This document shows, in pieces, positions 1,059 to 41,373 of a DNA stretch of 64,000 nucleotides (its first letter is position 1; the number at the start of each line of letters is the position of its first letter). A model generated the notes under the pieces. The model saw only the letters and a program-made list of their open reading frames with translations. It made no database searches and was not told the DNA's origin. Both the position numbers and the translations under genes were made by a program. The stretch covers positions 62,001-126,000 of the forward strand of contig UBQX01000021.1 of the NCBI GenBank assembly GCA_900467685.1. The letters run 5' to 3'. The stretch comes from Hyphomicrobiales bacterium (GTDB taxonomy: Bacteria; Pseudomonadota; Alphaproteobacteria; Rhizobiales; Rhizobiaceae).

Positions 1059-2963
1059 TCATGCTGCCTTCTCCTCGGCATACATGTCGTCGATCAGCGC
1101 CTTATGTTTCTTCTCCACGAAGCTGCGCTTGAGCTTCATGGTCGGGGTCAGCTCATCGTCCTCCGCGGTGAGCAGTATGTCGATCAATCGGAACTTCTTG
1201 ACCTGCTCGACGCGGGCGAAGTCCTTGTTGACCCTTTCGATGATCTCGCCGATCAGTGCCTGGACCTCCGGCCGGGCGCAGAGCGAAGCGAAATCCGAAA
1301 ACGGTATGCGGTGGTCCTGCGCGTATTTCTGCACATTCTCCTGGTCGATCATGACGAGGCAGGTGAGATATTTGCGCCGGTCGCCGATGATCACCGCATC
1401 CGAGATATAAGCTGAGAATTTCAGCCGGTTCTCGAATTCGGCGGGCGTAATGTTCTTGCCGCCGGCGGTGATGATGATGTCCTTGATGCGGCCGGAAATG
1501 CGAAGGTAGCCGGCCTCGTCGAGCTGGCCGGTGTCGCCGGTGCGCAGCCACCCATCCTCCGTCATGGTCTCGGCGGTTTTTTCCGGGTTCTTCCAGTAGC
1601 CACGGAAGACATTGCCGGCGCGGTACTGGATTTCGCCATCGGGTGCGATGCGGATTTGCGATCCCGGGATGGCCGGACCGACGGTGCCGAAGCGGTTGGA
1701 CTCCATCGCGTTGACCGACATCAGTCCGGCGCTTTCCGACATGCCGTAGCCTTCGAGAACGTAGACGCCGATCGCCTTGAACCACTTGAGGATTTCGGGC
1801 GAGATGGGAGCCGCACCTGTCGTCCCGCGCCGCAGCTTGTCGAGGCCGAGCATGCGACGGAGGTTCTTCAGGAGGACGAAATCCCAGAAGGCATAGGCGA
1901 GGCGGGTGGTGGCGGGAACGGGCTTTCCAGCCATCTCGCACTCGACCTTTCTCATGCCTGTGGCGACCGCCCGGTTGAATGCCCAGCGGCCGAGCGGGGT
2001 TGCGTCGGAGGCCATGATGACGACCTGCGAGTAGATCTTTTCCCAGACGCGCGGCACGGCAGTAAAGGCCGTCGGGCTCACCTCGCGGACGTTCTCGAAC
2101 ACCGTTTCCGTGCTTTCGGCGAAGTTCACCGTCGAGCGGGCGGCGATCGGGCCGGAGACCGAAATCATGCGCTCGAGGATATGGCAGAGCGGCAGGAAGC
2201 AGACCTGTTCGTCCTCGGGGAAGACGGGCAACAGAAGCACGTTGGCGGCAATCGTGTACATCATGTTCGAATGGTCGATCATGACGCCCTTCGGCATGCC
2301 GGTCGTGCCGGATGTGTAGATCAGGATGGCGATATCATCCGGTTTCGAAGCAGCGATCTCCTGCTCGATGCGATTTGGCTGGCGCCCTAGCTCCTGACGG
2401 CCCAACTCGTAGAGATCTTCGATGAAGATGACGTTGGGATCGCGGAAATCGTGCAGGCCTTCCGGATCGAAGACGATGACCTTCACGAGGCCCGGCATCT
2501 GGTCGCGGACTTCTAGATATTTGTCGAGCTGTTCGTCATTTTCGAGGAAAAGGAATTTCGTGCCGGAATCGTTGACGATATAGGCAAGCTGGCTCGCCGC
2601 ATCGGTCGTGTAAACGCCGGTGACGATGCCGCCGGCGCACTGGATGCCTAGGTCGGCATAGAGCCACTCCTTGTTGTCCTCCGACAGGATTGCCGCCACG
2701 TCGCCGCGCCCGAAACCCATGGAGATCAGGCCGAGGCCGATCAGCCGGGCGTGCTCGTACCAGTCGTCCCAGCTGTAGGACAGCCAGATGCCGAAGTCCT
2801 TTTCACGATGGGCGGTGCGGCTGCCGAGTTCCCGGCAACGCTTTTCGAAGAGCTTCGGCAGCGTGTCGCAACCGTCGATATAGAAGGGGCCATGGCTGAG
2901 GTCGGCATTGAGTTCGATGCCGTGCACCTTCTGCATGGGCGGAATGTTTGCGATCATGTTCAT
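1059..2963 (-). CDS. AMP-forming acyl-CoA synthetase (long-chain FadD type)
   Basis: This 634-residue ANL-superfamily enzyme would adenylate a carboxylic acid and transfer it to CoA in the cytoplasm. Visible motifs are the phosphate-binding loop ILIYTSGTTGMPKG near residue 215, the A5-type motif GYGMSESAG, the hinge segment WLRTGDTGQLDEAGYLRISGR and GGKNITPAEFEN. The C-terminal TPTMKLKR carries the usual catalytic-lysine region. The reading frame is open further upstream, but the ATG at 2963 (MNMIAN) follows GGGGAAAAGACG and leaves a 13 bp gap to livF, so I prefer it. Its place inside a liv-type ABC operon suggests that it activates the imported substrate. Its length and DxxTP-type hinge fit the bacterial long-chain or bulky-acid subfamily; the substrate is unknown. 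Confidence 0.9.
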   Translation of the reverse strand: MNMIANIPPMQKVHGIELNADLSHGPFYIDGCDTLPKLFEKRCRELGSRTAHREKDFGIWLSYSWDDWYEHARLIGLGLISMGFGRGDVAAILSEDNKEWLYADLGIQCAGGIVTGVYTTDAASQLAYIVNDSGTKFLFLENDEQLDKYLEVRDQMPGLVKVIVFDPEGLHDFRDPNVIFIEDLYELGRQELGRQPNRIEQEIAASKPDDIAILIYTSGTTGMPKGVMIDHSNMMYTIAANVLLLPVFPEDEQVCFLPLCHILERMISVSGPIAARSTVNFAESTETVFENVREVSPTAFTAVPRVWEKIYSQVVIMASDATPLGRWAFNRAVATGMRKVECEMAGKPVPATTRLAYAFWDFVLLKNLRRMLGLDKLRRGTTGAAPISPEILKWFKAIGVYVLEGYGMSESAGLMSVNAMESNRFGTVGPAIPGSQIRIAPDGEIQYRAGNVFRGYWKNPEKTAETMTEDGWLRTGDTGQLDEAGYLRISGRIKDIIITAGGKNITPAEFENRLKFSAYISDAVIIGDRRKYLTCLVMIDQENVQKYAQDHRIPFSDFASLCARPEVQALIGEIIERVNKDFARVEQVKKFRLIDILLTAEDDELTPTMKLKRSFVEKKHKALIDDMYAEEKAA

Positions 2964-2976
2964 CGTCTTTTCCCCC

Positions 2977-3750
2977 TCAACGCCAGGTCTTGCGGTTTTT
3001 CCAGCGGCGCTGTCCACGCTGGCTCTCGCCCTGCTGGCCGAGATAGAATTCCTGGATGTCCTTCGATGCGCGCAATTTCTCCGCCGGGCCGCCCATGACG
3101 ATGCGGCCGAGTTCCATCACGTAGCCATAATGGGCGGCCTCCAGCGCGATCTTGGCGTTCTGCTCGACCACCAGCATCGTCACCTTCTGCTCGGCATTGA
3201 GCCGCTTGATGATGGCGAAGATTTCCTTGGTCAGCAGAGGGCTCAAGCCGAGGCTCGGCTCGTCCAGCAGCATGACGCGCGGCCGTGCCATCAGGCCGCG
3301 CCCGATCGCCAGCATCTGCTGTTGACCGCCGGAGAGCGTGCCCGCATCCTGCGTCGAGCGCTCCTTCAGGATCGGGAAGTAGCGGTAGACCATATCGATA
3401 TCGGCGGCGATGCCGGCGCGGTCGGTGCGGGTGAAGGCGCCCATCTTCAGATTGTCCTCGACGGACATCAACGGGAAGATTTCGCGGCCCTCCGGCACCT
3501 GAACGACGCCCTTGCGAACCGAATGATCCGGGTCGCGGCCCTGGATTTCCTCGCCGGACAGCTTCACGGTTCCCTTTTCCGGGTCCATGACGCCGGAAAT
3601 GGTCTTCATCAGCGTCGTCTTGCCCGCGCCGTTTGCGCCCAGCACGGTGACGATCTGACCTTCATGGACCTCGAGGCTGACCCCGCGGATCGCCATGATC
3701 GGACCATAGTAGCTTTCGAGGTTCTCGATCTTCAGAAGCGGTTCGCCCAT
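2977..3750 (-). CDS. livF: Branched-chain-type ABC transporter ATP-binding protein LivF
   Basis: A 257-residue ABC ATPase with Walker A GANGAGKT, signature LSGGQQQ and Walker B VMLLDEPSLG. The segment GREIFPLMSVEDNL is typical of the LivF subfamily. The ATG at 3750 overlaps the livG stop as TGATG and has AGGAGG seven bases upstream; a GTG at 3753 is possible but less likely. It pairs with LivG to power the LivHM channel at the inner membrane. The tail after the ATPase core is slightly long and basic (GQRRWKNRKTWR), unlike the second livF copy in this window, which ends soon after the core. Confidence 0.95.
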   Translation of the reverse strand: MGEPLLKIENLESYYGPIMAIRGVSLEVHEGQIVTVLGANGAGKTTLMKTISGVMDPEKGTVKLSGEEIQGRDPDHSVRKGVVQVPEGREIFPLMSVEDNLKMGAFTRTDRAGIAADIDMVYRYFPILKERSTQDAGTLSGGQQQMLAIGRGLMARPRVMLLDEPSLGLSPLLTKEIFAIIKRLNAEQKVTMLVVEQNAKIALEAAHYGYVMELGRIVMGGPAEKLRASKDIQEFYLGQQGESQRGQRRWKNRKTWR

Positions 3751-4526
3751 CACGCGGCCTCCTCTTCATCGGAGCCGAGATAGGCCTCGACCACCCGTGG
3801 ATCGGTCTGCACTTCGCGCGGCGTGCCGAGCGCCAGCTTCTTCCCATCGGCCAGCGCCAGGACGCGGTCGCAGACGGAAGAGACGAGATGCATGTCGTGC
3901 TCCACCATCAGCACGGTGATGCCCATGACCTTCTTGATGTCCTCGATCCAGAAGGCGACGTCCTGTGTTTCCTCGACCGAGAGGCCGGAGGCCGGTTCGT
4001 CAAGGAGGAGCAGCTTCGGCTGGATGGCGAGCGCGCGGCCCATCTCCACCACCTTGCGCACGCCATAGGGCAGGCCGGCGATGAGCTTTTCGCGATAGGG
4101 CTGGAGGTCGAGGAAGTCGATGGCCTTCTCGACCGCCTCGCGGTGGCGATGCTCCTCGCGCCGGACAAAGGGCGTGAAGAGGAGTTCGGTCAGAAAATTC
4201 GAGCGGCGATGCGTGTAGCGGCCGACCAGCATGTTCTGCAGCACGCTCGCCTGCTCGAACAGCTCGATATTCTGGAAGGTGCGGGCAATGCCCAGCCCTG
4301 CGATCTCGTGCGGGGCCTTGTTGAGAATGCTCTTACCCTCAAAGAGGATATCGCCGGAATAGGGCGTGTAGAAGCGCGAGATCATGTTGAAGATCGTCGA
4401 CTTGCCGGCGCCGTTCGGGCCGACAAGGGCGAAGACCTCGCCTTCCTCGACTGCGAAAGAGACATCGTTGACGGCGGTCAGGCCACCGAATTTCAGGGTG
4501 ACGTTTTTCAGTTCCAGAAGGCTCAT
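3750..4526 (-). CDS. livG: Branched-chain-type ABC transporter ATP-binding protein LivG
   Basis: A 258-residue ABC ATPase: Walker A GPNGAGKS near residue 37, LivG-typical ARTFQNIELF, divergent signature LPYGVRKVVEMGRAL and Walker B LLLLDEPASG. The signature lacks the classical LSGGQ, as is usual for LivG proteins. The start at 4526 overlaps the livM stop by 4 bp (ATGA) and the stop overlaps the livF start, so the three genes are translationally coupled. An open frame upstream of 4526 is an accidental extension inside livM and should not be counted. Confidence 0.95.
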   Translation of the reverse strand: MSLLELKNVTLKFGGLTAVNDVSFAVEEGEVFALVGPNGAGKSTIFNMISRFYTPYSGDILFEGKSILNKAPHEIAGLGIARTFQNIELFEQASVLQNMLVGRYTHRRSNFLTELLFTPFVRREEHRHREAVEKAIDFLDLQPYREKLIAGLPYGVRKVVEMGRALAIQPKLLLLDEPASGLSVEETQDVAFWIEDIKKVMGITVLMVEHDMHLVSSVCDRVLALADGKKLALGTPREVQTDPRVVEAYLGSDEEEAA

Positions 4527-5620
4527 CTGATGCGCTCCGTCTTGAGGTAGCTCTTCTGGCGGCGGAACATGTCGCGCCGGGCGAAGGGGAACAGCTCGAA
4601 ATAGGTGCGGATCTTCACCCAGCGGCCATAGATGCCGAGGGGCTCGAAGAGGATGAAGAGAATGAGGATCGTGCCGAAGATCCCGGTCTCCAGGCCGGGG
4701 ATCGCGATGGAACCGAAATGGAAGATGCTGCCCAGCCCGTCGCGGGCAAAGGCAATGGCCTGCGGCAGGAAGCCGATGACGACGGCGCCGAGGAAGGCGC
4801 CGTGAATGGTTCCGAGCCCGCCGATGACGATCATCAGGATCAGGTTGATCGAGATGACGAGATTGAAGGTCTCCTGGTTGAAGACGCCGGCGAAGTGGCC
4901 CATCAGGGCGCCGCCGATGCCGGTCATGAAGGTGGAGATCGCGAAGGCTGTCGCCTTGGTGCGGGCCACGTTGATGCCCATGGCCTGCGCCGAAATTTCG
5001 GAATCGCGCACGGCTGCGAAGGCGCGACCCAGCGGCGAGCGCTGGATGTTGCGATAGGCGAGCACGATCAGGATGGCGATGGCGAGGATCAGCCAGTAGA
5101 GGCCGGATGCATTGCCGTAGCGGTTGAAGTTGACGCCGAAGATCTCGATGTCCGGCGCGATCAGGCCGTTGACGCCGCCGGTCAGCGGTTCGGCAAGAAC
5201 GATGACGTCTTCCATCATGACCGAGACGGCGAGCGTGGCAATCGCCAGATAGATGCCGTGCAGTCGCGTCACGGGCAGGGCGAAGAGGCCGCCGGCAATG
5301 CCGGTTATGATCCCGCCGAGTGGCAGGGCGAGGATGAAGGGAACGCCCGCGCTTTCCAGCAGCACGCAGGAATAGGCCCCGATCGCCATGAAGGCGGCGT
5401 GGCCGAGGCTTGCCTGTCCGCTCTGGCCGACGAGGAGCATGAGCCCCATGCCGCATATGGCCCAGATGAGCACGTTGGTGGCCTCGCCGGTGAGGAAGTC
5501 GCCGAGGAGGAAGGGCGCGGCGACCGCGACGATCAGCAGGAGCGCATACCAGAAGGCCTGCGCGCCATGCTTGAAGAGGCGGATATCGGCCTCGTAGGTG
5601 GTCTTGAAAACGATCCGCAT
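4523..5620 (-). CDS. livM: Branched-chain-type ABC transporter permease LivM
   Basis: A 365-residue inner-membrane permease with about ten hydrophobic segments. The family-typical MLLVGQSGQASLGHAAFMA sits after the second segment, GRAFAAVRDSEISAQAMGIN is the cytoplasmic coupling (EAA-like) loop, and GGLGTIHGAFLGA follows. I chose ATG 5620 (MRIVFK) because AAGAAGG lies about ten bases upstream and it starts 5 bp after the livH stop; a start seven codons earlier would lie within livH. It forms the heterodimeric channel with LivH. Confidence 0.93.
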   Translation of the reverse strand: MRIVFKTTYEADIRLFKHGAQAFWYALLLIVAVAAPFLLGDFLTGEATNVLIWAICGMGLMLLVGQSGQASLGHAAFMAIGAYSCVLLESAGVPFILALPLGGIITGIAGGLFALPVTRLHGIYLAIATLAVSVMMEDVIVLAEPLTGGVNGLIAPDIEIFGVNFNRYGNASGLYWLILAIAILIVLAYRNIQRSPLGRAFAAVRDSEISAQAMGINVARTKATAFAISTFMTGIGGALMGHFAGVFNQETFNLVISINLILMIVIGGLGTIHGAFLGAVVIGFLPQAIAFARDGLGSIFHFGSIAIPGLETGIFGTILILFILFEPLGIYGRWVKIRTYFELFPFARRDMFRRQKSYLKTERIR

Positions 5621-5624
5621 CGGC

Positions 5625-6500
5625 TCACACCTTCTTTGCACGGACCTGCGACAGCAGGCCGTGGGGGCGAACGATGAGGACGATGAGCAGGATCAGATAG
5701 GGCATGATCTGCGAGACGCCGGCAGCGACATAGCGCGAGGACAGCGGCTCGACGAGGCCGATGATCAGGCCGCCGAGCAGCGCGCCGGGCAGCGAGCCAA
5801 AACCGCCGATAATGGCGGCAGCGGACGCCTTGATGCCGAGAAGGCCGGTCGAGGGGTCGATCGTGCCCTTGGCGGCAAAGAGGATGCCGGCAATTGCAGC
5901 CACCCCGCCGGCGAGCGCCCAGACGAGCGCGTGAACGCGCTTCACCGGAATGCCCATGTAATAGGCGGCGAGCTGGTTCTGCGAGGCGGCCTGCATGGCG
6001 AGGCCGATTTTCGTCTTGGCGAAGAAGAGGTAGAGGCCGGCGGTCAGCAGGATCGTGACGATGATGATGGTCATGTCGTCGAAACCGAGGACAAGACCGC
6101 CGAGGCGAACTTCGCGGCCGGCCAGCGGGCTTTCCAACGATTGCGGTTCATGGCCCCAGATGACGCCTGCGACAAAACGCAGCACGATGCCGAGCGAGAT
6201 GGTCAGAATGACGATGGCGATCTGGCTCTCGCCGAACATGCGGCGGATGAGAAGCGCTTCCACAAGGTAGCCAACCACGCCCATCACGAGCACGGCCAGA
6301 ATGCAGGCAAGCCAGAACGGCAGGCCGAGTTCGTTGGAATTTGCGAAAGTGAGGGTCAGAAATGCCCCCAGCATCATGAAATCGCCCTGGGCAAAATTGA
6401 CGGCTTCCGTCGCCTTATAGATCAGCACGAAGCCGAGAGCGATCAGACCGTAAACGCAGCCATTTGCCAGGCCGCTGATCAGCAATTGCAATAAATCCAC
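5625..6500 (-). CDS. livH: Branched-chain-type ABC transporter permease LivH
   Basis: A 291-residue integral membrane protein, first gene of the left liv operon. The GTG start at 6500 is preceded by GGGAGGGA with good spacing. LivH features include GLANGCVYGLIALGFVLIYK at the N-terminus, AVNFAQGDFMMLGAF, and GGFGSLPGALLGGLIIGLVE near the C-terminus. It partners LivM. The gene lies 88 bp downstream of, and codirectional with, the TetR gene, so the regulator and transporter may share transcripts. Confidence 0.95.
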   Translation of the reverse strand: MDLLQLLISGLANGCVYGLIALGFVLIYKATEAVNFAQGDFMMLGAFLTLTFANSNELGLPFWLACILAVLVMGVVGYLVEALLIRRMFGESQIAIVILTISLGIVLRFVAGVIWGHEPQSLESPLAGREVRLGGLVLGFDDMTIIIVTILLTAGLYLFFAKTKIGLAMQAASQNQLAAYYMGIPVKRVHALVWALAGGVAAIAGILFAAKGTIDPSTGLLGIKASAAAIIGGFGSLPGALLGGLIIGLVEPLSSRYVAAGVSQIMPYLILLIVLIVRPHGLLSQVRAKKV

Positions 6501-6588: not shown

Positions 6589-7260
6589 CTATGCGTTCAA
6601 ACGGTTTGCCGTTGCGGAGTCTCCCAACCCCGCAAGAGCATAATCCGTACATTGCTGCGCGATCCGGCGACGGTCTTGCGCCGTTTCGCCGGGGCGCGGC
6701 TTGTACCAGAAGATCGGCGAGTTCAGCGCCATGAACATGAGCTGCCGCGCGATACTGGGATCTCCGTAATGTATATTGCCATCGCGGGCCGCTTCTTCCA
6801 TAACCGCCTTGAAAAGAGCCGAATAACGGTCGCGGCTTTCAATCAGTGCGTTCAGACGCTCGCGCTGTTCCGGCGTCGTGGAGCCGCGAAGATGGATTTC
6901 CACGCCCTGCCAGACGGAGTGCTGGTAGGCCTGCGTTTCGATCATCGACATGCAATGGGCAAAGGCCATGTCACGCAGGCGCTCGATCGCCGGCGCCTCT
7001 CTTTTCAGGCTGGCGTCGATGGCGGCATAGTTGAACTCCATGCCGACTTCGGCGACCGCGAAGAAGAGGTCGGCCTTGGATGCGAAAAAATGATAGATAC
7101 GGCCCTTGGTGGAGCCAAGCCGGCGGGCGACGTCGTCGATGCTGGTGGAGGCGAAGCCGCGGTCCATGAAGCACTGGGCGGCCATGCGCAGGATCTCGAC
7201 CTGGCCTTCCTCGACCAGACTGCGCTCAAGGTTGCTTTGCGCGGACGCATTCGCGGTCAT
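6589..7260 (-). CDS. TetR/AcrR-family transcriptional regulator
   Basis: This 223-residue protein has an N-terminal TetR helix-turn-helix at about residues 20-66 (AAQCFMDRGFASTSIDDVARR, then GSTKGRIYHFFASKADLF), which is the canonical YYHF/KADL layout. The rest is an all-helical ligand-binding domain whose ligand cannot be predicted. It lies between the liv/acyl-CoA ligase operon (same strand, downstream) and the carrier-protein operon (divergent). A perfect inverted repeat at 7322-7339 in the shared upstream region is a candidate operator. Many TetR proteins next to acyl-CoA ligases respond to acyl-CoA esters; by inference this one may control the left operon, the divergent operon, or both. 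Confidence 0.92.
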   Translation of the reverse strand: MTANASAQSNLERSLVEEGQVEILRMAAQCFMDRGFASTSIDDVARRLGSTKGRIYHFFASKADLFFAVAEVGMEFNYAAIDASLKREAPAIERLRDMAFAHCMSMIETQAYQHSVWQGVEIHLRGSTTPEQRERLNALIESRDRYSALFKAVMEEAARDGNIHYGDPSIARQLMFMALNSPIFWYKPRPGETAQDRRRIAQQCTDYALAGLGDSATANRLNA

Positions 7261-7482: not shown

Positions 7483-7734
7483 ATGAAGGACAAGATCAGG
7501 GAACTTTTGGGCAAGCTCGGTGGCCTGCCTGTGGCGGTTGATACGCTTGCGGATGGCGCGGATCTCTACGCGGCCGGTCTTTCCTCCTTCGCGTCGGTCC
7601 AGCTCATGCTCGGCATCGAAGACGCCTTCGACATCGAATTTCCGGACCATCTCCTGAACCGCAAGTCGTTCGCCTCGATCGACGCGATTGCCGAAACGGT
7701 GTCGGCCATCGTCGAAGGCCGGGAGGCTGCGTGA
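7483..7734 (+). CDS. Acyl/aminoacyl carrier protein
   Basis: An 83-residue, mostly acidic helical protein of the PP-binding family. The phosphopantetheine site reads LYAAGLSSFASVQLML. Ser35 aligns with the Ser of the usual DSL motif, whose Asp and Leu are replaced by Ser and Phe, a divergence seen in stand-alone carriers served by aminoacyl-tRNA-synthetase-like ligases. The start at 7483 has AAGGAGAAG directly upstream; a long in-frame extension upstream crosses the regulatory region and is not credible. It is the first gene of a four-gene operon and its stop overlaps the next start (TGATG). It is probably loaded with an amino acid by the ligase at 8920-9828. A fatty-acid carrier role is unlikely because it is separate from any fab gene. 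Confidence 0.9.
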   Translation: MKDKIRELLGKLGGLPVAVDTLADGADLYAAGLSSFASVQLMLGIEDAFDIEFPDHLLNRKSFASIDAIAETVSAIVEGREAA

Positions 7735-8915
7735 TGAACATGATGTCTGAAATTCGCGGCGCCGGGCTCGTTGAGCGCGCCCGCGAAGTCGCCGCCGTTG
7801 CCGGCAAACATGCCGATGCCGTCGACAAGGAAGGCCGCTTCCCGCACGAAGCCGTGGCCGCCATGAAGTCGGCGCGCCTCTTCGGCATCCAGGTTCCGAT
7901 CCTTCTGGGGGGCGAGGGCGCCACCATCGCCGAAATCGCCGAAGTCTGCTCGATCATCGCGCAGGAATGCGCCTCGTCGGCCATGATCTTCGCCATGCAT
8001 CACATCAAGCTGTCGAGCTGCGTTTCGCACGGCATGGGCGACGAATGGCACGAGGCCTTCATGCACCGCATCGTGCGCGAACAGCTCCTGCTCGGCTCGG
8101 CCACCACTGAAGCCGGTATCGGCGGCAATCTGCGCAATTCGATCTGCGCCATCGAGGTCGACGGCGACATCTGCCGCCTGACCAAGGAAGCGACCGTCAT
8201 TTCCTACGGCAAGCAGGCCGACGCGATCCTCATCACGTCCCGTTCGCACAAGGAAGCGGCCTCGACCGACCAGGTCATGACCGTGTTCCTCAAGGACCAG
8301 TACACGCTCGAACAGACCCATGTCTGGGATACGATGGGCATGCGCGGCACTTGCTCCGACGGGTTCCTCTTCAAGGCGGAAGCGCCGGCGGTTCAAATCC
8401 TGCCGAAGCCTTTCGCGGAAATCGCGGCTGAATCCATGCTGGCGACCTGCCACCTTCTCTGGTCGGCCACCTGGTATGGCATTGCGCTCAACGCGGTCAC
8501 CCGCGCGCAGGCCTTCGTTCGCGCCGCCGCCCGCGCCAACCCCGGCACGACGCCTCCCGGCGCGCTGCGTCTGGCGGAAGCCACGGCAGAACTGCATCTG
8601 ATCAAGTCCAACGTCATTGCCGGGATCGAGCGCTTCGAAGCGGCCAAGGAAGATCCGGCGCAGCTCTCCTCCTTGGGCTTTGCCGTGGCGATGAACAACG
8701 TCAAGATCGCGACCTCGCAGATGATCCTTTCGGTCATCAACCAGGCGATGATCATCTGCGGCATTGCCGGCTACAAGAACGGCACGCCCTACAGCATTGG
8801 CCGCCACCTGCGCGACGCGCATTCGGCCCAGCTGATGATTTCCAACGAACGCATCCTGTCGAACACCGCGACGATGCTGACCGTCCACAAACTCGACACG
8901 AGCCTGATGGGATAA
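7734..8915 (+). CDS. Acyl-CoA-dehydrogenase-fold flavoprotein
   Basis: A 393-residue protein matching acyl-CoA dehydrogenases throughout. It has an N-terminal helical domain with [19 protein letters not shown], a middle beta domain with [10 protein letters not shown] and [15 protein letters not shown], and a C-terminal helical domain with [19 protein letters not shown]. After RHLRDAH the position that holds the catalytic Glu in medium-chain dehydrogenases (YEGT) reads MISN, so the usual base is not in that place. ATG 7734 overlaps the carrier-protein stop and has GGGAGG upstream. Given the neighbours, the substrate may be an aminoacyl or acyl group on the carrier protein rather than a CoA ester. 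The chemistry could be dehydrogenation with a base elsewhere, or a flavin monooxygenase-like reaction. Confidence 0.88.
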
Positions 8916-8919
8916 CGCC

Positions 8920-9828
8920 ATGGATATGCAAGTGACTTTCCTCGACCGCCTGTTTGACAGCGGTCTCCTGATCGACACCGGCGTCGAAGGGCTCTATGCG
9001 CGCTCCGGCACGTTCGAAGATGTCATCACCGGCTTCGAGCGCCTGATCGACAAGTTTTCCGGCGAAACCGGTGCCGAAGTCATCCGCTTCCCTCCCGGCA
9101 TGAACCGCAGCTATTTCGAAGGCTCCGGCTACATGAAGAACTTCCCGCAGCTGGCGGGCACGGTTCACTGCTTCTGCGGCGACGATCTGGCCCATGCCGA
9201 TCTGATCCAGTGCATGGCAGCTGGCGAAGACTGGACCGGCGGTCAGAAGGCCTCCGACATCGTTCTGACACCTGCGGCCTGCTATCCGCTCTATCCGATC
9301 GTCGCCAAGCGCGGCAATCTGCAGGCGGGCGGCGGTCTCTTCAACATCCAGTCCTACTGCTTCCGTCATGAGCCCTCGATGGACCCGGCCCGCATGCAGC
9401 TCTTCCGCATGCGCGAGTTCGTCCGCATGGGCAAGCCGGCCGACGTCATGGCCTTCCGCCAGGAATGGATGGAAAAGGGCAAGGAACTGATGGCGCAGGT
9501 GGCGCTGCCGGTCGATATCGACGTCGCCAACGACCCCTTCTTCGGCCGCGCCGGCCGTCTGATGAAGAACAACCAGCGCGACCAGAACCTGAAGTTCGAA
9601 CTGCTCATCCCGATCACCTCGGTTTCCAAGCCGACGGCCTGCATGAGCTTCAACTATCATCAGGATCATTTCGGCAAGACCTGGGACCTGAAGACCGTGG
9701 ACGGCGAAACCGCCCACACGGCCTGCGTCGGCTTCGGCCTGGAGCGCATTGCGCTCGCGCTCTTCCATCACCACGGGCTCGATCCCAAGCTGTGGCCTCA
9801 GCAGGTCCGCGACGCCCTCTTCGGGTGA
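8920..9828 (+). CDS. Amino acid:[carrier protein] ligase (class II aminoacyl-tRNA synthetase-like)
   Basis: This 302-residue protein is a catalytic core of class II synthetases related to atypical seryl-tRNA synthetases. It has no tRNA-binding N-terminal arm. Motif 2 is [20 protein letters not shown] (Arg149, Glu151) and motif 3 is GFGLERIAL (Arg276). Cys121 (TPAACYP), Glu166 (FRMREF) and Cys269 (HTACVGFG) fit the Cys/Glu/Cys zinc site of this family. Published work on Agrobacterium and Bradyrhizobium homologues showed that such enzymes activate small amino acids and attach them to the phosphopantetheine of a neighbouring carrier protein instead of tRNA. It lies 4 bp after the flavoprotein gene. 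Which amino acid is used (Gly or Ala are the precedents) cannot be decided here. Confidence 0.9.
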
Positions 9829-9832
9829 TCCG

Positions 9833-10792
9833 ATGACGGGCATTTTGAACGTCACGCCCAACGGTTATCAGCCGCATGCGCTCCATTCCCCGGAGCGCAT
9901 GTGGCCTGAAACCAATTGCTATACCGATCTCTGGATCGAGCTTCTGGCAGCCCAGGGCCTTGCGCCGCAATCCATGCTGGCCTTCACGCTGACCCAGGAT
10001 TTCGAAGGCGACCAGATGACCTTTTTCAAGGTTCCGCTGGAAGACCTTGAAACGCTTTACGGAATTGTCGTCACCGAGCTGGCGATCTACGACAAGGTCG
10101 AAGCCCATGTCGCCGAACAGGCGGCGCGTGGCCGTATCTGCCTCGTGGAGATGGACTCATTCTACATGCCCGACACGCAGGGCGTGGCTTACAAGCTCGA
10201 GCACGGAAAGACCACGGTTGCGATCAACCGGATGGATATTGAGGGACGAGAGCTCGACTATTTCCACAATGCCGGTTTCTTCCATCTTTCCGGCGAGGAT
10301 TTCGACGGGCTGTTCCAGATGAATGCGCCGGAAGGATCTCTGCCTTTCCTGCCCTATACCGAATTCGTCAAGCTGCCGGATCTCTATCCCGACGAGCAGG
10401 TACTCCGCGAGGAGGCGCTGTCGCTTGGCCAGTATCACTACGACCGTCGGCCAGCCGAAAACCCGATTGCCGCCTTTTCCGCGATCTTCCCGGAAGCGGC
10501 AGCGAAAGTCGCCGAACGTCCCTTTGGTTTCTTCCACAAATATGCGTTCAATACGCTGCGGCAGGCGGGCGCGAATTTCGAGCTCTGCGGCAGCTATTTC
10601 GAATGGCTGGGGCCGGAGTTTGCCGAGCCTGCGAGCTACGCGATGCGGATTTCGGAAGTGATGAAATCGGCACAATTCCAGCTGGCGCGGGCAGTCACAC
10701 GCAAGAAGTTCGAGCCGCTGAACGGCGCACTGGAACCGGCGGCGGAGGCCTGGGAAAAGCTGATGGAGAGTGGGGGCAGGGCGCTGGGGTGA
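9833..10792 (+). CDS. DUF1839 family protein, possible carrier-to-acceptor aminoacyltransferase
   Basis: A 319-residue soluble protein of DUF1839, a family with no assigned function that I recognise from neighbourhoods of amino acid:carrier protein ligases. The start at 9833 lies 4 bp after the ligase stop; an open frame further upstream is inside the ligase. The N-terminus carries NCYTDLWIELLAAQGLAP (Cys29), then GRICLVEMDSFYMPDT (Asp108), LEHGKTTVAIN (His124) and LDYFHNAGFFHL (Asn146). This order of Cys, D-x-x-Y-x-P, His and Asp/Asn resembles the cysteine-peptidase-like BtrH fold, whose founder moves an acyl group from a carrier protein to an aminoglycoside. That link is my inference from pattern, not a database result. 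No signal peptide or membrane segment. Confidence 0.85.
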   Translation: MTGILNVTPNGYQPHALHSPERMWPETNCYTDLWIELLAAQGLAPQSMLAFTLTQDFEGDQMTFFKVPLEDLETLYGIVVTELAIYDKVEAHVAEQAARGRICLVEMDSFYMPDTQGVAYKLEHGKTTVAINRMDIEGRELDYFHNAGFFHLSGEDFDGLFQMNAPEGSLPFLPYTEFVKLPDLYPDEQVLREEALSLGQYHYDRRPAENPIAAFSAIFPEAAAKVAERPFGFFHKYAFNTLRQAGANFELCGSYFEWLGPEFAEPASYAMRISEVMKSAQFQLARAVTRKKFEPLNGALEPAAEAWEKLMESGGRALG

Positions 10793-10819: not shown

Positions 10820-10847
10820 GGGTAGAGCGGGGTGCCACAAACTGTCC

Positions 10848-10969
10848 GTCATGCCGGACTTGATCCGGCATCCAGCCAGCCCGCGTCTGCGGGCTGAAAG
10901 GACTCTAAGGAAAGAGTCTTCTGCGCGAAGGACTTCGCGCGCTGGATCCCGGATCAAGTCCGGGATGAC
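10848..10969. repeat. Composite palindromic intergenic element (RIME/REP-like)
   Basis: A 122 bp element bounded by 29 nt inverted arms (10848-10876 and 10941-10969) that differ at only two positions. Each arm is itself a hairpin (GCCGGA/TCCGGC on the left, CCCGGA/TCCGGG on the right) and the two mismatches are compensatory. Three further perfect hairpins lie inside: CAGCCCGC/GCGGGCTG at 10877-10896, GACTCT/AGAGTC at 10901-10918 and GCGCGAA/TTCGCGC at 10923-10940. It sits between the DUF1839 and GH2 genes. Mosaic palindromic elements of this type are known from rhizobial genomes; no coding content. Confidence 0.8.
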
Positions 10970-11037
10970 GACGGTAATGGTGATCGCGATGACGTCCCCA
11001 TTCGCTGTCGCTGCGCGACTATATACCGAGAAAGACG

Positions 11038-13470
11038 ATGACCAACCACGCCACCGCATCCGCCCAGCCCACAATCCGCCGTCTAGATGACGGCTGGGTG
11101 ATGGAATTGACGCGGGCGGGGGCTTGCGCGAGCCCGGACGAAATCGTCGGGATCGAGGACTTCATCCGCGCCTTCGTGCCCGGCACGGTAGCGCAGGCAT
11201 TGGAAGCCGTCGAACGGTTTGATCGCGCCAACCCAATGCCGCTTGATGACCGCGACGCGTGGTATGTGCTGCGTCTGGACGAAGAGCCGGGCGATGCCGT
11301 CTTGCGCTTCGAAGGCCTGGCGACGGTGGCCGAGGTCTGGCTCAACGGCGATCGGATTCTTTCGAGTCAAAGCATGTATTTAAGCCACGACGTGAATGTC
11401 CACCTTCAGGGGGGCGACCGTCTGGCGATCTGCTTTCGGGCGCTGGGGCCGCTTCTCGGAAAGAAGGGGCCACGGGCGCGCTGGCGGCCGCAGATGATCA
11501 CGCCGGCAGGCGTTCGGCTTTTCCGAACGACGACGCTGGGGCGCATGCCGGGCTGGTGCCCGGAGGTTCATGCGGTCGGGCCTTGGCGGCCTGTTTCGGT
11601 CATTCGACAGGCCAAGGATCGGCCGGGCGAGGCGCGGATTTCAGCGTGTCGCGATGCGCAGGGTTGCGGGCATCTGAGGGTCCGGATTGAGAATGCCGAG
11701 GGCGCGACGGTCTCTTGTGCCGGGGCAAGCGCCAAGGTGATTGACGGTTCGGCCGTTCTTGTGCTGCCGGATGTTGAGCCCTGGTGGCCGCGCACCCATG
11801 GCAACCCGGTTCTGCATGACGTAACGCTCGAATGGGGCGGCGAGACGGTGCTGCTTGGCCGCACGGGCTTCCGCCATATCGAAGTGGATCGCGACGCGGA
11901 CGGGCAGGGCTTCGGCCTCAAGGTCAACGGCGTGCCGGTCTTCTGCCGCGGGGCGGTCTGGACGACCGCCGATATCGTCAGCCTGCCGGGCGGGCGGGAG
12001 GACTATCGTCCGTGGATCGAGAAGGCCGCGCAGGCGAACATGAACATGATCCGCATCGGCGGAACCATGGCCTATGAGAGTGCCGACTTCTTCCAGCTCT
12101 GCGACGAACTCGGCCTGATGGTCTGGCAGGAGCTGATGCTCGCCAATTTCGACTATCCTGCAGGCGATGCAGCGTGGCTGGCCGACTTGAAGCAGGAGGT
12201 CGCGCAACTGCTCGACTGGACGTCCGCCTCGCCGTCGCTCGCCGTCGTCTGCGGCGGCTCGGAGGTTTACCAGCAGGCGGCCATGCTCGGCCTGCCGGAG
12301 AGCACCTACAAGTCCGACCTGACGGAAAGCATACTTCCCGAACTTGTGTCGGCGCACCGGCCCGATTGCGTCTGGGTTCCCAATTCGCCGTCGGGCGGTG
12401 CCATGCCGTTTTCGCCCAATGCCGGCGTGACTCACTATTATGGCGTTGGAGCCTATATGCGCCCGCTCGAAGATGCCCGGCGCGCCAATGTCCGCTTTGC
12501 CGCCGAAAGCCTTGCCTTCGCCCATGTGCCCGAGCAGGCGACGCTCGATAGGCATCTGGCGGTAGCCCCCGTTCACGATCCGCGCTGGAAGGCCCGCGTG
12601 CCGCGCGACCGGGGCGCCTCCTGGGATTTCGAGGATGTGCGGGACTTCTATCTAAAGCTCCTTTACGACGTCGAGCCGGAACGGCTGCGGCGTGAAAATC
12701 CTGGGCTCTATCTCGATCTTTCCCGTGCCGTGACGGGCGAGGTGATCGAGGCGACCTTTGCCGAATGGCGTCGCGCGGGATCGTCCTGCCGGGGTGCGCT
12801 TACCTGGACCTTTCAGGATCTGCTGCCCAGTCCCGGTTGGGGCCTCATCGATTCGACGGGCACGCCCAAGCCCGTGTGGCACGCCGTTCGTCGCGCCTTC
12901 CAACCGCTTCAGGTCATGCTGACGGATGAGGGGACGAATGGTGTCGATGTCCATGTCATCAACGATCTGGGCGAGGGCAGAGATGTGACGGTGGAACTGG
13001 TCTGCCTGCGCGATGGCGCGGTGCCGGTGGTTTCGGGCCGGCGCGAACTGACGCTTGAACCGCATTCCGCTTCAAGATTTGCGGCCACCGATCTCTTCGG
13101 GGCCTTTTTCGACACGGCTTACGCCTTCCGCTTCGGTCCGCCATCGCATGACGTGACCGTGGCGCGGCTTGTCGACAAGACCAGCGGCGAGGAGATTTCG
13201 AGCGCTTGCCACTTCCCGCTCGGACGTTCGGTGGCGCGGCGCGATGTGACGTTCGCGCTGGAACTTGTCGAGTCGGATCAGGGCTTTGCTCTGGACATCG
13301 CGACCGATCGGTTTGCTCAGAATATTCAGATCGACGCTGCGGGTTTCGAGACCTCGGACAATTGGTTCCACCTCGCGCCCGGCCACACCCGCCGCATCAC
13401 CTTCACCGGAGAGGGCAAGCCGTCCGGCGAGGTTCGCCTTGCCGGCGGACGTTGCGTCTCAAGGTTTTGA
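11038..13470 (+). CDS. Glycoside hydrolase family 2 protein, beta-mannosidase-like
   Basis: An 810-residue protein with the GH2 architecture: a sugar-binding jelly-roll domain (EVWLNGDRILSSQSMYLSHD), an immunoglobulin-like domain and a TIM barrel (QANMNMIRIGGTMAYESADF, DELGLMVWQELMLANFD). The acid/base Glu appears in SPSLAVVCGGSEVYQQ, where the usual GNNE reads GGSE, and the nucleophile Glu probably in VRFAAESLAFAHVPE. The overall pattern is closest to beta-mannosidases. No signal peptide is visible, so it should act in the cytoplasm on short glycans or glycosides. It is codirectional with the carrier-protein operon but separated by 245 bp holding the palindromic element, so it may be cotranscribed or independent. 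Altered residues around the active site leave catalysis unproven. Confidence 0.85.
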   Translation: MTNHATASAQPTIRRLDDGWVMELTRAGACASPDEIVGIEDFIRAFVPGTVAQALEAVERFDRANPMPLDDRDAWYVLRLDEEPGDAVLRFEGLATVAEVWLNGDRILSSQSMYLSHDVNVHLQGGDRLAICFRALGPLLGKKGPRARWRPQMITPAGVRLFRTTTLGRMPGWCPEVHAVGPWRPVSVIRQAKDRPGEARISACRDAQGCGHLRVRIENAEGATVSCAGASAKVIDGSAVLVLPDVEPWWPRTHGNPVLHDVTLEWGGETVLLGRTGFRHIEVDRDADGQGFGLKVNGVPVFCRGAVWTTADIVSLPGGREDYRPWIEKAAQANMNMIRIGGTMAYESADFFQLCDELGLMVWQELMLANFDYPAGDAAWLADLKQEVAQLLDWTSASPSLAVVCGGSEVYQQAAMLGLPESTYKSDLTESILPELVSAHRPDCVWVPNSPSGGAMPFSPNAGVTHYYGVGAYMRPLEDARRANVRFAAESLAFAHVPEQATLDRHLAVAPVHDPRWKARVPRDRGASWDFEDVRDFYLKLLYDVEPERLRRENPGLYLDLSRAVTGEVIEATFAEWRRAGSSCRGALTWTFQDLLPSPGWGLIDSTGTPKPVWHAVRRAFQPLQVMLTDEGTNGVDVHVINDLGEGRDVTVELVCLRDGAVPVVSGRRELTLEPHSASRFAATDLFGAFFDTAYAFRFGPPSHDVTVARLVDKTSGEEISSACHFPLGRSVARRDVTFALELVESDQGFALDIATDRFAQNIQIDAAGFETSDNWFHLAPGHTRRITFTGEGKPSGEVRLAGGRCVSRF

Positions 13471-13523: not shown

Positions 13524-14336
13524 TCAGACCCGCTTCAGGAACCCGTCCGGTGAAGCAGTGATGGCGAGCTTGTTCTCGATCACCTTGTCGATCTCCAGAT
13601 GGAGCGGCTGGCCGTCGCGGGCTGTCCGGCCTTCCTCTTCCAGCGCCTTTCTGTAGGCCCAGACGGCGGTCTTGGGATTGTCGCCCTTGCCCCAGGGGCG
13701 GTCGGCGCACATGAAGTCGGGCAGGCCTTCGACGCCAGTGTCCCAGACGACGCAATAGCAGCCCTTCGTGGTCAGCGGCGCGTAGAGTTCGAGTTCGGCC
13801 AGTACATGCTCGTGCGTGTGGTTGGAGTCGAGAAAGATCATGATACGTTCATGGCCTTCCGTGTGTTTCAGAACCTCGGCGAAGACGTCCTCCGCCACCG
13901 ACGAGCCCTGAATGAGTTCGATCTTGTGGCGCATGGGGTGGGCGTCGAGGGCGGCGCGGTTATGGGCGCGGATGTCGATATCGACGCCGACGACCTTGCG
14001 GCGGCTGGCCTTCGGGTCGAGCGTCTTGCCGGCCTGCACGGCATCGCAATAGTCGAGCATGGCGAGCATGGAGGCGCTCATCACCAGCGAGCCGCCATGG
14101 GCAATGCCGGTCTCGATCACGAGATCCGGACGGCAGGACCAGATGAGTTCCTGGATCGCATAGGTGTCCTGCGGCACCTGGATGATCGGCCGGCCGAGCC
14201 AGGTGAAGTTCTGCGCATAGCGGTGGTGGATGGATTCGCGCACCCAGATATTGCTCAACCCCAGGAAGTCCGGGTCGTTGCCGATATCCTCGATGTTCTT
14301 GGCGACATATTGCGCGAAATGGGTGACGGGATCCAT
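13524..14336 (-). CDS. CmcI-type methyltransferase / cephalosporin-hydroxylase-like protein
   Basis: A 270-residue SAM-dependent methyltransferase of the CmcI/rhamnosyl O-methyltransferase family (PF04989). The SAM-binding loop is VIETGIAHGGSLVMSASML, followed by VVGVDIDIRAHN and IMIFLDSNHTHEHV. The start at 14336 (MDPVTHF) has AAGGAG five bases upstream; a much longer open frame reaching back into the neighbouring gene is not credible. In surface-glycan loci such proteins usually O-methylate sugars. It is last in a minus-strand run with two FkbM-type genes, 22 bp after the first. It converges with the GH2 gene with a 53 bp gap. Confidence 0.85.
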   Translation of the reverse strand: MDPVTHFAQYVAKNIEDIGNDPDFLGLSNIWVRESIHHRYAQNFTWLGRPIIQVPQDTYAIQELIWSCRPDLVIETGIAHGGSLVMSASMLAMLDYCDAVQAGKTLDPKASRRKVVGVDIDIRAHNRAALDAHPMRHKIELIQGSSVAEDVFAEVLKHTEGHERIMIFLDSNHTHEHVLAELELYAPLTTKGCYCVVWDTGVEGLPDFMCADRPWGKGDNPKTAVWAYRKALEEEGRTARDGQPLHLEIDKVIENKLAITASPDGFLKRV

Positions 14337-14358
14337 GCGTGCTCCTTTGCCAGACCGG

Positions 14359-15438
14359 TCAGTCGATCCAGGCGTACAAGACGGTTTCGAGTTGCCGCGG
14401 CGCGTGATGCCGCAGGGCGAATTGATAGTCGGGGCAGATAGCGCGGATCGCGCCCATGATGTCCGGAATGTCCGACGGGTAGTGATAGGCGCAAATGGCC
14501 AGACGTGGCCGGAAGGTCGCGATTGTCTGGCGCGCGCCGGCCAGCAGCGCCATCTCCATGCCCTCGACATCGGCCTTGATGAAACTTGCCGGGCCGCCCT
14601 GCAGGTAGTCGTCCAGCGAGACGACAGGGATGCCCGGCTGGTCGGCAGACGCCGCCGTCAGCGCATAGCTTTGCGCCTGGCCGCTCTGGCTTGCGCCGGC
14701 CAGTGTGGCGCGGGATGCGCCGAGCGCCATGTGGTTGATTTGTAGTTTGCCGGGCTGGATCGCCCATTCGTCCGTCAGCCGCTCGCAGCGTTTCGTCAGG
14801 GCGGCGAATTGGCGCCCGGCTGGCTCGAAGGCGTGGATGGCCTTGAAGTTTCCGGCATGCGCCCAGAGGAAGCGCTCGACGCTGTCGCCGACATAGGCGC
14901 CGGCGTCGATGTAGATTTCCTCCTCGACGCCGCAGAAGGGCGGCAGGCAGAAATACTGGTCCTTCTCGTAGATCGTCTCGCAGAGCCGGGCATCACCGGT
15001 GAGCATCGTGTTGACGACAACGCGCAGCACCTCGCGCGAGCGGTCGTCAGTCAGCGTTTCGTATTCGCGGGCGAAATCCTCGAAACGCAGTGCGACAAAG
15101 AAGGCCTCGAAGGGCATGTGCTTCATGCCGGCTTCTGCCAATCGCGCGGAAACCGGCTTCACCGCATGGCGGGCGGTGATCAGCGTCAGATCGACCGGCT
15201 CGACGCCGGCTGCGAAGGGATCGCGGATCGGGAGGCCATCGAAATCGCCTCCGATGCGGGCCGGGTTGGAATCGAAGCAGGTCGTGAGCGTGTAGCCATT
15301 TTCGGGCAGCCAATGTCGGGACCAGCGACCAAGGAAACCCGCGCCATAGATGGCGAGTTTCCGGCTGTGGAGGTCACCGAGTTCGGCGCGCAGGCGACGG
15401 GCTTCGACGCCGAGATCTTCAAAGGAAAGACCGGTCAT
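14359..15438 (-). CDS. FkbM-family methyltransferase with N-terminal nucleotide-binding domain
   Basis: A 359-residue two-part protein. The N-terminal ~110 residues look like a small Rossmann module (KLAIYGAGFLGRW, then TTCFDSNPARIGGDFDGLPI). The C-terminal part is an FkbM methyltransferase with IYIDAGAYVGDSVERF (SAM motif I), IHAFEPAGRQFAAL, ASFIKADVEGMEMALLAGA and LAICAYHYPSDI. FkbM proteins methylate hydroxyl groups on sugars or polyketides. Start 15438 has AGGAGC upstream and overlaps the stop of the preceding gene (ATGA), showing translational coupling with the 415-residue paralogue. Confidence 0.85.
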   Translation of the reverse strand: MTGLSFEDLGVEARRLRAELGDLHSRKLAIYGAGFLGRWSRHWLPENGYTLTTCFDSNPARIGGDFDGLPIRDPFAAGVEPVDLTLITARHAVKPVSARLAEAGMKHMPFEAFFVALRFEDFAREYETLTDDRSREVLRVVVNTMLTGDARLCETIYEKDQYFCLPPFCGVEEEIYIDAGAYVGDSVERFLWAHAGNFKAIHAFEPAGRQFAALTKRCERLTDEWAIQPGKLQINHMALGASRATLAGASQSGQAQSYALTAASADQPGIPVVSLDDYLQGGPASFIKADVEGMEMALLAGARQTIATFRPRLAICAYHYPSDIPDIMGAIRAICPDYQFALRHHAPRQLETVLYAWID

Positions 15439-16682
15439 GGTCGGCGCTCCTGGGGGATGGCGTAGATGACTGCGCCGGTGCCGCACCAGCTATGGAGGCG
15501 GAAGAGGAAACGGTAGTTTGCAAGCGTCTGCATCAGCCATTGCGCGGTCGCGTAGAGGCCGTCCGCGTTGTGGTAGACGGTGGCCATGACGATGGGGCGG
15601 TTTGCTGCCAGCGTTGCCGCCGCTCCCTTGAGCACGGGGAGTTCATGGCCTTCCAGGTGAAGCTTGACGATGCTGGGCTTCAGGCCGAGTGCGTCGACAG
15701 TCGTTGTCTGGTGGACCGATTGGCCGGTCGTGGCAATCTGCGAAGCATAGCCGAGACCGGCGTGGAAGTGTCGTTGCTGCGGCGCGTCGTCGAGCGCGGC
15801 GTCGATGACAGTGACTTTCTCAGCCTGGTCGGCGGGCAGCGTGGCGATCGTCTGCGTGAGCGTCGCCAGGCTTTGCGGGTCCGGCTCGATGGCGGCGACG
15901 GAGGCGAAACGGCCCTGCCGCTCCTCTATGAATCGTCGCGTCACCTGCCCAAAATAGGCCCCGGCATCGACAAAATGCTCGTCCTCGCGGAGGACGGAGA
16001 GGATTTCAGGGATGAAGAAACGGTCCCCGAGCGTCACGGGTGCGTCGTTGAAGTTCCATTCCTGCCGAAGGCGACGCCAGGCGAGAAATTGCAGATGGTG
16101 GGCGCGGGAGCAGTCGTCGGACCAGCCTTCCAGCACTTCGGAGAGGCCCGCGAGGTCTTGGCTCGAAAAGGGGTCGGCGATCCAGCCGTTCGAGAGCGGG
16201 TGGCGTTCGCGGAAGCTCTCGGCGATGTCGTAGTAGGGGACAATGTTCGCCCATCCGGCTGCGTGCAGCGAGGCTTGAAGGGGCGCAAACGGACTGGTGG
16301 CGATGCTGACGGCGAGCATGACTTCGCGCTTGAAGGCGGGATCGACCTCGTCGGGATGCAGCACCGGAATGTTGGCCCAGCCCGGATCGGCGGCCATGGC
16401 CTCCGCGTTGCGGTCGATGACTGCGGCGATCGGGATGTCGAGATATTTCAGGTGATCGCGTGCCAACCGGCCGAGGTCGCCTGCGCCGTAAAGGGCCAGC
16501 GGCTGCTTGGGGGCGAGGGGACGGGCAGTCGACCGGGCGGCGGCGATTTCGGCGAGAAGCTCACGCGCTGTGGCGGAAGAAGGCGCGGCCTCGAACGCGC
16601 GCGCGGTCACGCCCGCGGAAGCCGGATCGTCTTGCGTTTTCTGCCGTGCTGCGGTCGCAGCGTCCCCGAGGCCGTTCAACAT
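15435..16682 (-). CDS. FkbM-family methyltransferase-like protein (divergent paralogue)
   Basis: A 415-residue protein with the same two-part plan as its downstream partner. Its N-terminal Rossmann-like module reads PLALYGAGDLGRLARD and AAVIDRNAEAMAAD. The C-terminal FkbM domain has EHFVDAGAYFGQVTRR and VAAIEPDPQSLATL, but the usual K-x-D-x-EG-x-E is LHLEGHELPVLKGA. The first ~50 residues are low-complexity Ala-rich. First gene of the three-gene minus-strand methyltransferase run. The altered central motif could mean different acceptor use or loss of activity. The target is probably a surface sugar, inferred from the neighbours. Confidence 0.8.
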   Translation of the reverse strand: MLNGLGDAATAARQKTQDDPASAGVTARAFEAAPSSATARELLAEIAAARSTARPLAPKQPLALYGAGDLGRLARDHLKYLDIPIAAVIDRNAEAMAADPGWANIPVLHPDEVDPAFKREVMLAVSIATSPFAPLQASLHAAGWANIVPYYDIAESFRERHPLSNGWIADPFSSQDLAGLSEVLEGWSDDCSRAHHLQFLAWRRLRQEWNFNDAPVTLGDRFFIPEILSVLREDEHFVDAGAYFGQVTRRFIEERQGRFASVAAIEPDPQSLATLTQTIATLPADQAEKVTVIDAALDDAPQQRHFHAGLGYASQIATTGQSVHQTTTVDALGLKPSIVKLHLEGHELPVLKGAAATLAANRPIVMATVYHNADGLYATAQWLMQTLANYRFLFRLHSWCGTGAVIYAIPQERRP

Positions 16683-16878
16683 GGATTTCTCTTAGCAGCG
16701 ACAGGCTTTCCCGTGGCTTGTCATGGGCAGGTATAACTCCGGATTAGCAGAGTTAGCGATGGCTTTCTGTCCGTGATAGGCTGCAAAGGCAAGTTTGGCG
16801 CAATCGCGATCTGCTTATGCTCGGCCTATATCTGGCGCGACAGGCCTTGACCCTGTTTACTGCCGTTTGGAGAAATAC

Positions 16879-41369: not shown

Positions 41370-41373
41370 CGGA

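Follow-up and report, generated by a model that had tools for sequence, protein, structure and literature searches.

A conserved gene set that may pass a carrier-bound amino acid to a surface sugar in plant-associated bacteria

What becomes of an amino acid once a ligase built on a class II synthetase core, without a tRNA-binding arm, has loaded it on a carrier protein? Passages of a 2022 review still call the biological role of such synthetase-derived ligases unknown (PMC9437257). The question is raised anew by a locus in a 64,000-nucleotide stretch of a Hyphomicrobiales bacterium of the Rhizobiaceae (contig UBQX01000021.1, positions 62,001 to 126,000; hereafter the window, which is part of a 5.05 Mb genome), where genes for a carrier protein, a flavoprotein, such a ligase and a DUF1839 protein follow one another. 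A sequence-only reading of the window had seen in these genes (7483–10792) a tight operon whose products charge an amino acid on the carrier, oxidize it by means of a flavin and hand it to an acceptor. We compared the locus with its relatives in other genomes and analyzed each component by profile searches, residue conservation and structure prediction. We give an even chance to the chain as a whole, in which six conserved proteins would act by ligase, carrier, oxidation and transfer to an amino sugar towards a polysaccharide product.

The gene set and its conservation

The components in the window are as follows:

7483–7734, plus strand: carrier protein related to Atu2571, with Ser35 as phosphopantetheine site
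7734–8915, plus strand: flavoprotein of the acyl-CoA dehydrogenase (ACAD) fold without the usual catalytic Glu (Ile369)
8920–9828, plus strand: amino acid:[carrier protein] ligase with a class II synthetase core that lacks the tRNA arm
9833–10792, plus strand: DUF1839 protein, papain fold, probable carrier-dependent amide synthase (Cys29)
11038–13470, plus strand: GH2 glycosidase (PF22666, PF17753), Ser-Glu motif of GH2_14, no signal-like N-terminus
17967–19760, minus strand: HYD, a double (fused) alpha/beta hydrolase distantly related to exosortase A-associated hydrolases 1 and 2

Profile matches and gap lengths agree that the first four genes are intact and closely spaced at the positions first assigned to them, with a 1-base overlap followed by two gaps of 4 bases. 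The extent given in the sequence-only reading holds for this quartet, but the unit continues past 10792 with the GH2 gene and, on the minus strand, HYD.

The comparison set consisted of 54 stretches from 53 other genomes. In all 54, the carrier, flavoprotein, ligase and DUF1839 genes follow in this order on one strand, so the gene set is not a product of chance; the earlier reading had tied its proposal to such joint conservation in other genomes. The GH2 gene comes next after DUF1839 in 53 of the 54 stretches (the exception is L108), and the median gaps between the five genes are −1, 4.5, 4 and 15 bases, as measured with automatic start calls. In the 80 named loci, which are the best 80 of at least 520 confirmed relatives, the five genes are present in 78, 79, 80, 80 and 80 cases; the three misses (L139, L143) arise because the contigs start inside the cluster.

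HYD is coupled to this set even where it is not linked to it. It lies inside the stretch in 40 of the 54 cases, compared to none of 40 control stretches taken elsewhere in the same genomes. The 14 stretches without HYD belong to 13 genomes and to one further genome that has HYD at its second cluster, and all 13 genomes carry an unlinked HYD elsewhere (in G382 as two adjacent pieces). Taken together, the linked and unlinked cases place HYD in 53 of the 53 other genomes with the cluster. By contrast, the same query that found HYD in these 13 genomes detected it in none of 30 genomes lacking DUF1839 (E ≤ 1e-10), four of which have a distant ligase. The Azospirillum sp. B510 and Mycetohabitans endofungorum operons run carrier, flavoprotein, ligase, DUF1839, GH2 and alpha/beta hydrolase, the hydrolase (592 or 616 residues) being encoded by a gene that overlaps the preceding GH2 gene and being 30% identical to the window HYD over 572 columns in one case and 28% over 599 columns in the other. 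A tblastn search with the window HYD, confined to the surroundings of the cluster, found none in L253–L256, L271 and L272.

The cluster is a conserved gene set of plant-associated bacteria. DUF1839 is patchily distributed, being present in 29 of 151 genomes of a family sample, 26 of 199 of an order sample and 4 of 289 of a class sample (own genome included each time). Within the order sample, DUF1839 coincides exactly with the close form of the ligase (E ≤ 1e-160), both being found in the same 26 genomes, and 14 further genomes have a distant or partial form of the ligase only. All five genes were also found by tblastn in four genomes beyond the class (L253–L256). DUF1839 occurs on 59 plasmid records, from Rhizobium (18), Azospirillum (11), Mycetohabitans (9), Caballeronia (7), Burkholderia (4), Cupriavidus (4), Shinella (3), Methylobacterium (2) and Phyllobacterium (1). 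The window DUF1839 is 93% identical to that of Rhizobium sp. C1.

Some features of individual copies were also recorded. The gap between DUF1839 and GH2 is 245 bases in the window, compared to a median of 15 in other genomes, and it holds a 30-base inverted repeat (10847–10970; arms 93% complementary and 64 bases apart) that looks like a dispersed intergenic palindrome inserted into the operon. On plasmid pRL3 of Rhizobium leguminosarum, the copy of the cluster is seemingly disrupted (L316:13815-17403): the flavoprotein match is split over two frames, and GH2 is reduced to the equivalent of its first 151 residues, followed by an IS5 gene. A TetR gene (6589–7260) was considered as a conserved regulator and rejected, since it is divergent to the cluster in just 2 of the best 80 named loci and 2 of the 54 stretches.

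Predicted loading and oxidation of the amino acid

The carrier matches PF00550 (E 1.3e-6) and NF005480 (120.9 bits, cut-off 72), its Ser35 is invariant in 35 of 35 aligned sequences, and its closest relative of solved structure is Atu2571 (PDB 2jq4 and 4h2w chain C, E about 5e-34). The ligase scores 499.4 bits against NF005479, 'amino acid--[acyl-carrier-protein] ligase' (cut-off 357), and is closest to solved Bll0957 (PDB 4h2w and 3mey, 315.6 and 301.5 bits). The alignment to the solved ligases spans residues 8–300 of its 302 and includes no tRNA-binding arm. The motifs FRHE (148–151) and GFGLER (271–276) are in place, and the metal-ligand positions Cys121, Glu166 and Cys269 are invariant in 39 of 39 aligned sequences. 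The motifs and residues that the sequence-only reading had named in these two proteins were all found, and both curated cut-offs were passed. Mocibob's work of 2010 and 2013 is reported to describe such an amino acid:[carrier protein] ligase system, with loading by the ligases and a complex with the Atu2571 carrier. By analogy, we infer that the window ligase loads an amino acid, glycine or alanine, on the carrier; these are the substrates that a review table lists for homologous ligases (PMC9437257).

A loaded carrier could in principle feed a peptide synthetase, leading to non-ribosomal peptide or amide assembly. Indeed, the ligase–carrier pair resembles a free-standing adenylation/carrier pair, and a non-ribosomal link is named in the title of a 2010 report. 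However, no peptide synthetase was recognized among the recurring neighbor families, which were inspected by eye and in part run against Pfam, and we consider this destination highly improbable.

The flavoprotein has the fold and the Pfam domains of an acyl-CoA dehydrogenase (PF02771, E 3.9e-9; PF00441, E 4.6e-7) and lacks the catalytic Glu of that family. HMMER alignments place Ile369 opposite the YEG-motif Glu of dehydrogenases and residue 92 opposite the Asp of the 7p98 enzyme, and the isovaleryl-type base position was assigned by hand to residue 239. At these three positions, which we take to be the catalytic base sites of dehydrogenases, acidic residues never occur in 133 sequences of the flavoprotein's own group and 10 of the Bll0957 type (Ile/Val, Lys/Gln and Ser/Ala/Cys are found instead). 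The YEG position, in particular, is Ile or Val in all 133 of the former and Ile in all 10 of the latter. His89, Trp198, His240, Trp243 and Trp247 are invariant across the set. KijD3 and DnmZ, both nitrososynthases, and the oxygenase DszC are among the sequence matches. Because the dehydrogenase base is missing, oxygenation or C–N oxidation is, in our judgement of the sequence, about twice as likely as alpha,beta-dehydrogenation.

It is supported that the substrate would be the carrier-bound amino acid, since the flavoprotein stays with the ligase where DUF1839 is absent. It is encoded beside the ligase in 10 of 10 Bll0957-type loci without DUF1839, the carrier being recognized in 8 of these 10 stretches, and the same trio is found on Priestia aryabhattai plasmid p-LAD4 (L315:8130-16689), where acpS, carrier, flavoprotein and ligase genes are present and DUF1839 is absent. 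The domains and fold of the protein would also suit an ordinary acyl-CoA dehydrogenase that acts on free acyl-CoA, independently of the carrier. This is very unlikely given that Ile or Val replaces the catalytic Glu in 143 of 143 sequences and that the gene lies between those of the carrier and the ligase in 54 of 54 stretches, besides its place in the ten distant loci. Since the flavoprotein lacks a dehydrogenase base, the oxidation proposed from sequence may be of more than one kind.

The ligase and carrier of the window belong to the families known from the Atu2571–Atu2574 neighborhood and from Bll0957, and the window is another member of this system. At Bll0957-type loci, the carrier, flavoprotein and ligase genes occur without DUF1839. 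A protein of about 290 residues without a Pfam match (L224, L226) might be the missing transferase of the Bll0957-type loci. At one such locus (L226:6703-8070), a polysaccharide-flippase gene (PF01943) adjoins the carrier gene, with look-alikes recognized by eye in L223 and L225. A remote ligase homologue (23% identity) on a plasmid of Apilactobacillus kunkeei has a small hypothetical gene on one side and two ddl-like genes on the other (L319:5148-10111).

Proposed transfer to a sugar

DUF1839 was assigned as the sequence-only reading had it (PF08893, E 9e-124). A sequence search against solved structures gave nothing usable, and structural matches came from a fold search only. The AlphaFold2 model, built from 48 sequences (pLDDT 86.5, pTM 0.88), was compared with the PDB, and all 19 matches at E ≤ 0.001 were chains of AziU2-U3, CtaG or CcbD. 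These matches span the whole length of the protein, helical C-terminal part included, and show a two-part papain fold. Cys29 is kept in 141 of 142 sequences, and a basic C-terminal helix is conserved as well (Lys278 in 139, Arg286 in 142 and Arg290 in 140 of 142). In CcbD, proline is described as passing from the carrier onto a Cys and then to the amino group of a thiooctose, and C-terminal arginines as holding the carrier (PMC12945683). Given the fold, the conserved Cys and the gene linkage, the best reading of the model is that DUF1839 is a carrier-dependent amide synthase, which we hold to be likely.

A 2023 survey reads the site of DUF1839, set in a fold like that of papain, as an unusual Cys-(Thr/Ser)-His arrangement and suggests an acyl-CoA-dependent role in cell-wall glycan processing (PMC10318531), which would make it a cell-wall or glycan hydrolase, or a transglutaminase-like enzyme, rather than a carrier-fed amide synthase. 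The best whole-length folds are nevertheless those of carrier-dependent amide-forming enzymes, the next match being a local one to a C39-like peptidase (E 0.025). Moreover, the protein shows no hydrophobic N-terminus in a crude test and is strictly paired with ligase and carrier. We therefore regard this alternative as improbable.

The amide synthase reading has described parallels. CcbD and LmbD resemble DUF1839 in whole-length fold and, in the manner proposed for it, use a Cys to join a carrier-bound amino acid to an amino sugar. They differ in loading by an adenylation domain, in sequence (12–14% identity to DUF1839) and in the second and third residues of the site, and their route as described includes no such flavoprotein or GH2 enzyme. 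In butirosin biosynthesis, with which the sequence-only reading had drawn its comparison, the papain-fold enzyme BtrH is described as moving a carrier-bound acyl group to an aminoglycoside amine (PMC10318531); the loading and oxidation enzymes differ, however, and neither by fold nor by sequence did we obtain a direct match to BtrH. The logic of carrier-bound amino acid, oxidation and transfer thus gains from the fold shared with CcbD, CtaG and AziU2-U3 and from the cohesion of the genes, though more than four genes are involved.

The GH2 enzyme offers a hint as to the acceptor. It is closest to beta-mannosidases (146 bits to 5n6u), and both catalytic Glu are kept in all 135 sequences that have a letter there. 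The Asn that precedes the acid/base is replaced by Ser in 134 of 135 (SE motif), and the Trp of mannosidase loop 2 is replaced by Gly in 103 of 136. The window enzyme has S408-E409, E490 and G341. Both replacements are marks of GH2_14, the subfamily with the fewest signal peptides according to a 2025 study, which explains the Ser of a sister glucosaminidase subfamily as a fit for the C2 amino group (PMC12243196). The window enzyme shares with GH2_14 the SE motif, the loop-2 Gly, the lack of a signal-like N-terminus and the proximity to beta-mannosidases; the assignment is made here by motif marks, and enzymes of the window type differ in having Ser, Pro or Ala in loop 2 in the other 33 of 136 sequences. 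To judge from the sequence, these marks hint at a C2-substituted sugar, short of proving an amino sugar.

Two observations concern individual DUF1839 genes. At L254:10434-11420, Arg occupies the position of the catalytic Cys, and a second DUF1839-like gene lies near the cluster in L256 (10448-11332 and 15285-16184).

Probable destination of the product

Our proposal can be set out as follows. The ligase would adenylate a small amino acid, glycine or alanine, and load it on the carrier. The flavoprotein would oxidize the aminoacyl thioester, rather by oxygenation or C–N oxidation, and DUF1839 would take the acyl group on Cys29 and hand it to a sugar amino group, forming an amide as CcbD does. 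GH2, its pocket altered on the C2 side, may prepare or trim the sugar. To judge from its phyletic coupling and its neighbors, the double hydrolase may link the product to polysaccharide assembly, perhaps as a transferase or thioesterase. The product would most likely be a modified sugar of an exopolysaccharide. A more specific version, which we put forward tentatively and hold to be less probable than the general chain, is an exopolysaccharide or precursor with an N-(oxidized glycyl or alanyl) 2-amino sugar, perhaps galactosamine, made with the synthetase-derived ligase, the carrier, an ACAD-fold oxygenase lacking the dehydrogenase base, a CcbD-like amide synthase, a GH2_14 enzyme and HYD.

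The polysaccharide setting is seen in the neighbors. Genes for a flippase, Wzz, Wzy, a glycosyltransferase or a priming transferase, of the kinds searched for, occur in 28 of the 54 stretches compared to 1 of the 40 controls (Fisher p 6e-8). In the window, GH2 is followed by a methyltransferase/radical SAM block, HYD, flippase, GT2, Wzz, GH5 and GT4 genes. The context genes are:

19757–21292, minus strand: flippase-type polysaccharide exporter (PF13440, PF01943)
21402–22286, minus strand: glycosyltransferase family 2 (PF00535)
22327–24501, plus strand: chain-length determinant Wzz (PF02706, PF13807)
24504–25811, plus strand: possible polymerase Wzy (no Pfam match; a guess from place and look)
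26768–27889, minus strand: glycosyltransferase group 1 (PF00534, PF13439)

HYD itself scores below the cut-offs of exosortase A-associated hydrolases 1 and 2 (63.8 bits against 168.45 and 62.6 against 202.75). Its first half has the nucleophile Ser in 4 of 96 sequences only, and its second half keeps the GxCSG motif (Ser in 91 and Cys in 95 of 96). Where the flanks of unlinked HYD genes were compared by tblastn, a glycosyltransferase lies next to HYD in two of the four cases.

Several observations weigh against our proposal. The contrast in polysaccharide genes between stretches and controls is inflated to some degree, since both the window and the case loci supplied the queries. The DUF1839 fold matches have identities of 11–14%, TM scores of 0.52–0.64 and root-mean-square deviations of 5.6–7.2, and the catalytic His is ambiguous, His124 and His145 both being kept in 142 of 142 sequences. 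For the flavoprotein, the C-terminal part of the model is weak and the fold search does not separate dehydrogenases from oxygenases (KijD3, DnmZ and DszC/TdsC mixed in), the C-terminal domain PF00441 is of dehydrogenase type, and the base positions other than that of YEG were placed by residue numbering. The two GH2_14 enzymes that have been assayed split p-nitrophenyl-beta-galactoside slowly, did not act on mannobiose or mannotriose and pointed to no amino sugar (PMC12243196). Related trios without DUF1839 lie in clusters that look like small-molecule pathways, and the pathway is predicted here from genes and models.

The same chemistry could accordingly yield a diffusible amino-sugar conjugate, a signal, antibiotic or metal binder, instead of a polymer. 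The nearest folds, CcbD, CtaG and AziU2-U3, are those of antibiotic-pathway enzymes. The Priestia trio, which looks to be part of a small-molecule cluster, is followed after the ligase by genes for a transporter, an ATP-grasp enzyme, an alanine permease and an alanine racemase, and exporters lie nearby. The patchy distribution of DUF1839 and its presence on plasmids also fit a diffusible product, as does the lack of any sugar-assembly marker in 26 of the 54 stretches, which counts against a polymer. Against this stand the recurrence of HYD and of polysaccharide genes next to the cluster and the absence, to judge by eye, of any recurring exporter or resistance gene from the most widespread families around the 54 stretches. 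We consider a diffusible product rather unlikely, and retain the modified exopolysaccharide sugar as the preferred one.

Such a route would recall the D-alanylation of teichoic acids (Dlt), in which an amino acid likewise goes from ligase to carrier to surface polymer. It would differ in that the Dlt membrane acyltransferase makes an ester, whereas the window system has a soluble papain-fold enzyme and probably makes an amide. Distant ligases lie beside a carrier and an MBOAT acyltransferase at L230:7914-10999, L231:5692-8728 and L258:8810-11730 (at least 3 of 15 such stretches), an arrangement like that of Dlt in which a class II synthetase core stands where DltA would be.

The idea of the sequence-only reading is close to a prediction printed in 2010. 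A note in proof describes this very type of neighborhood, with ACP, redox enzyme, Atu2574-type conserved protein, glycosidase and liposaccharide genes, and predicts for it that a carrier-bound, oxidized amino acid is ligated to a cell-surface amino sugar as an amide, with the redox enzyme acting by monooxygenation (PMC2922099). As far as the literature was searched, what goes beyond that prediction is the strict cross-genome pairing, the HYD partner even when unlinked, the match of DUF1839 to CcbD-type enzymes in fold, the lack of a dehydrogenase base in the flavoprotein and the marks of GH2_14 in the glycosidase. We found no mention of the coupling between HYD and the cluster in a search that did not extend to the supplement of the 2010 paper.

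The evidence makes the question testable, with one predicted amide synthase, one acceptor class (amino sugars) and one partner, HYD, that is often unlinked and should produce the same phenotype when lost. If the proposal is true, DUF1839 acquires its first role and GH2_14 a biological setting, and a translation-derived enzyme, turned into a surface-sugar aminoacylation system, is connected with the chemistry of the cell surface in rhizobia, agrobacteria, Azospirillum and relatives of Burkholderia.

Two further sets of genes lie around the cluster in the window. The block between GH2 and HYD (13524–17958) holds CmcI/FkbM-type methyltransferase genes and a radical SAM/SPASM gene; it was rejected as part of the cluster, being seen in just 2 of the best 80 named loci. 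On both flanks of the cluster (1062–6500 and 34923–42276) lie sets comprising an AMP-binding acyl-CoA ligase and an ABC transporter of the branched-chain amino acid type.

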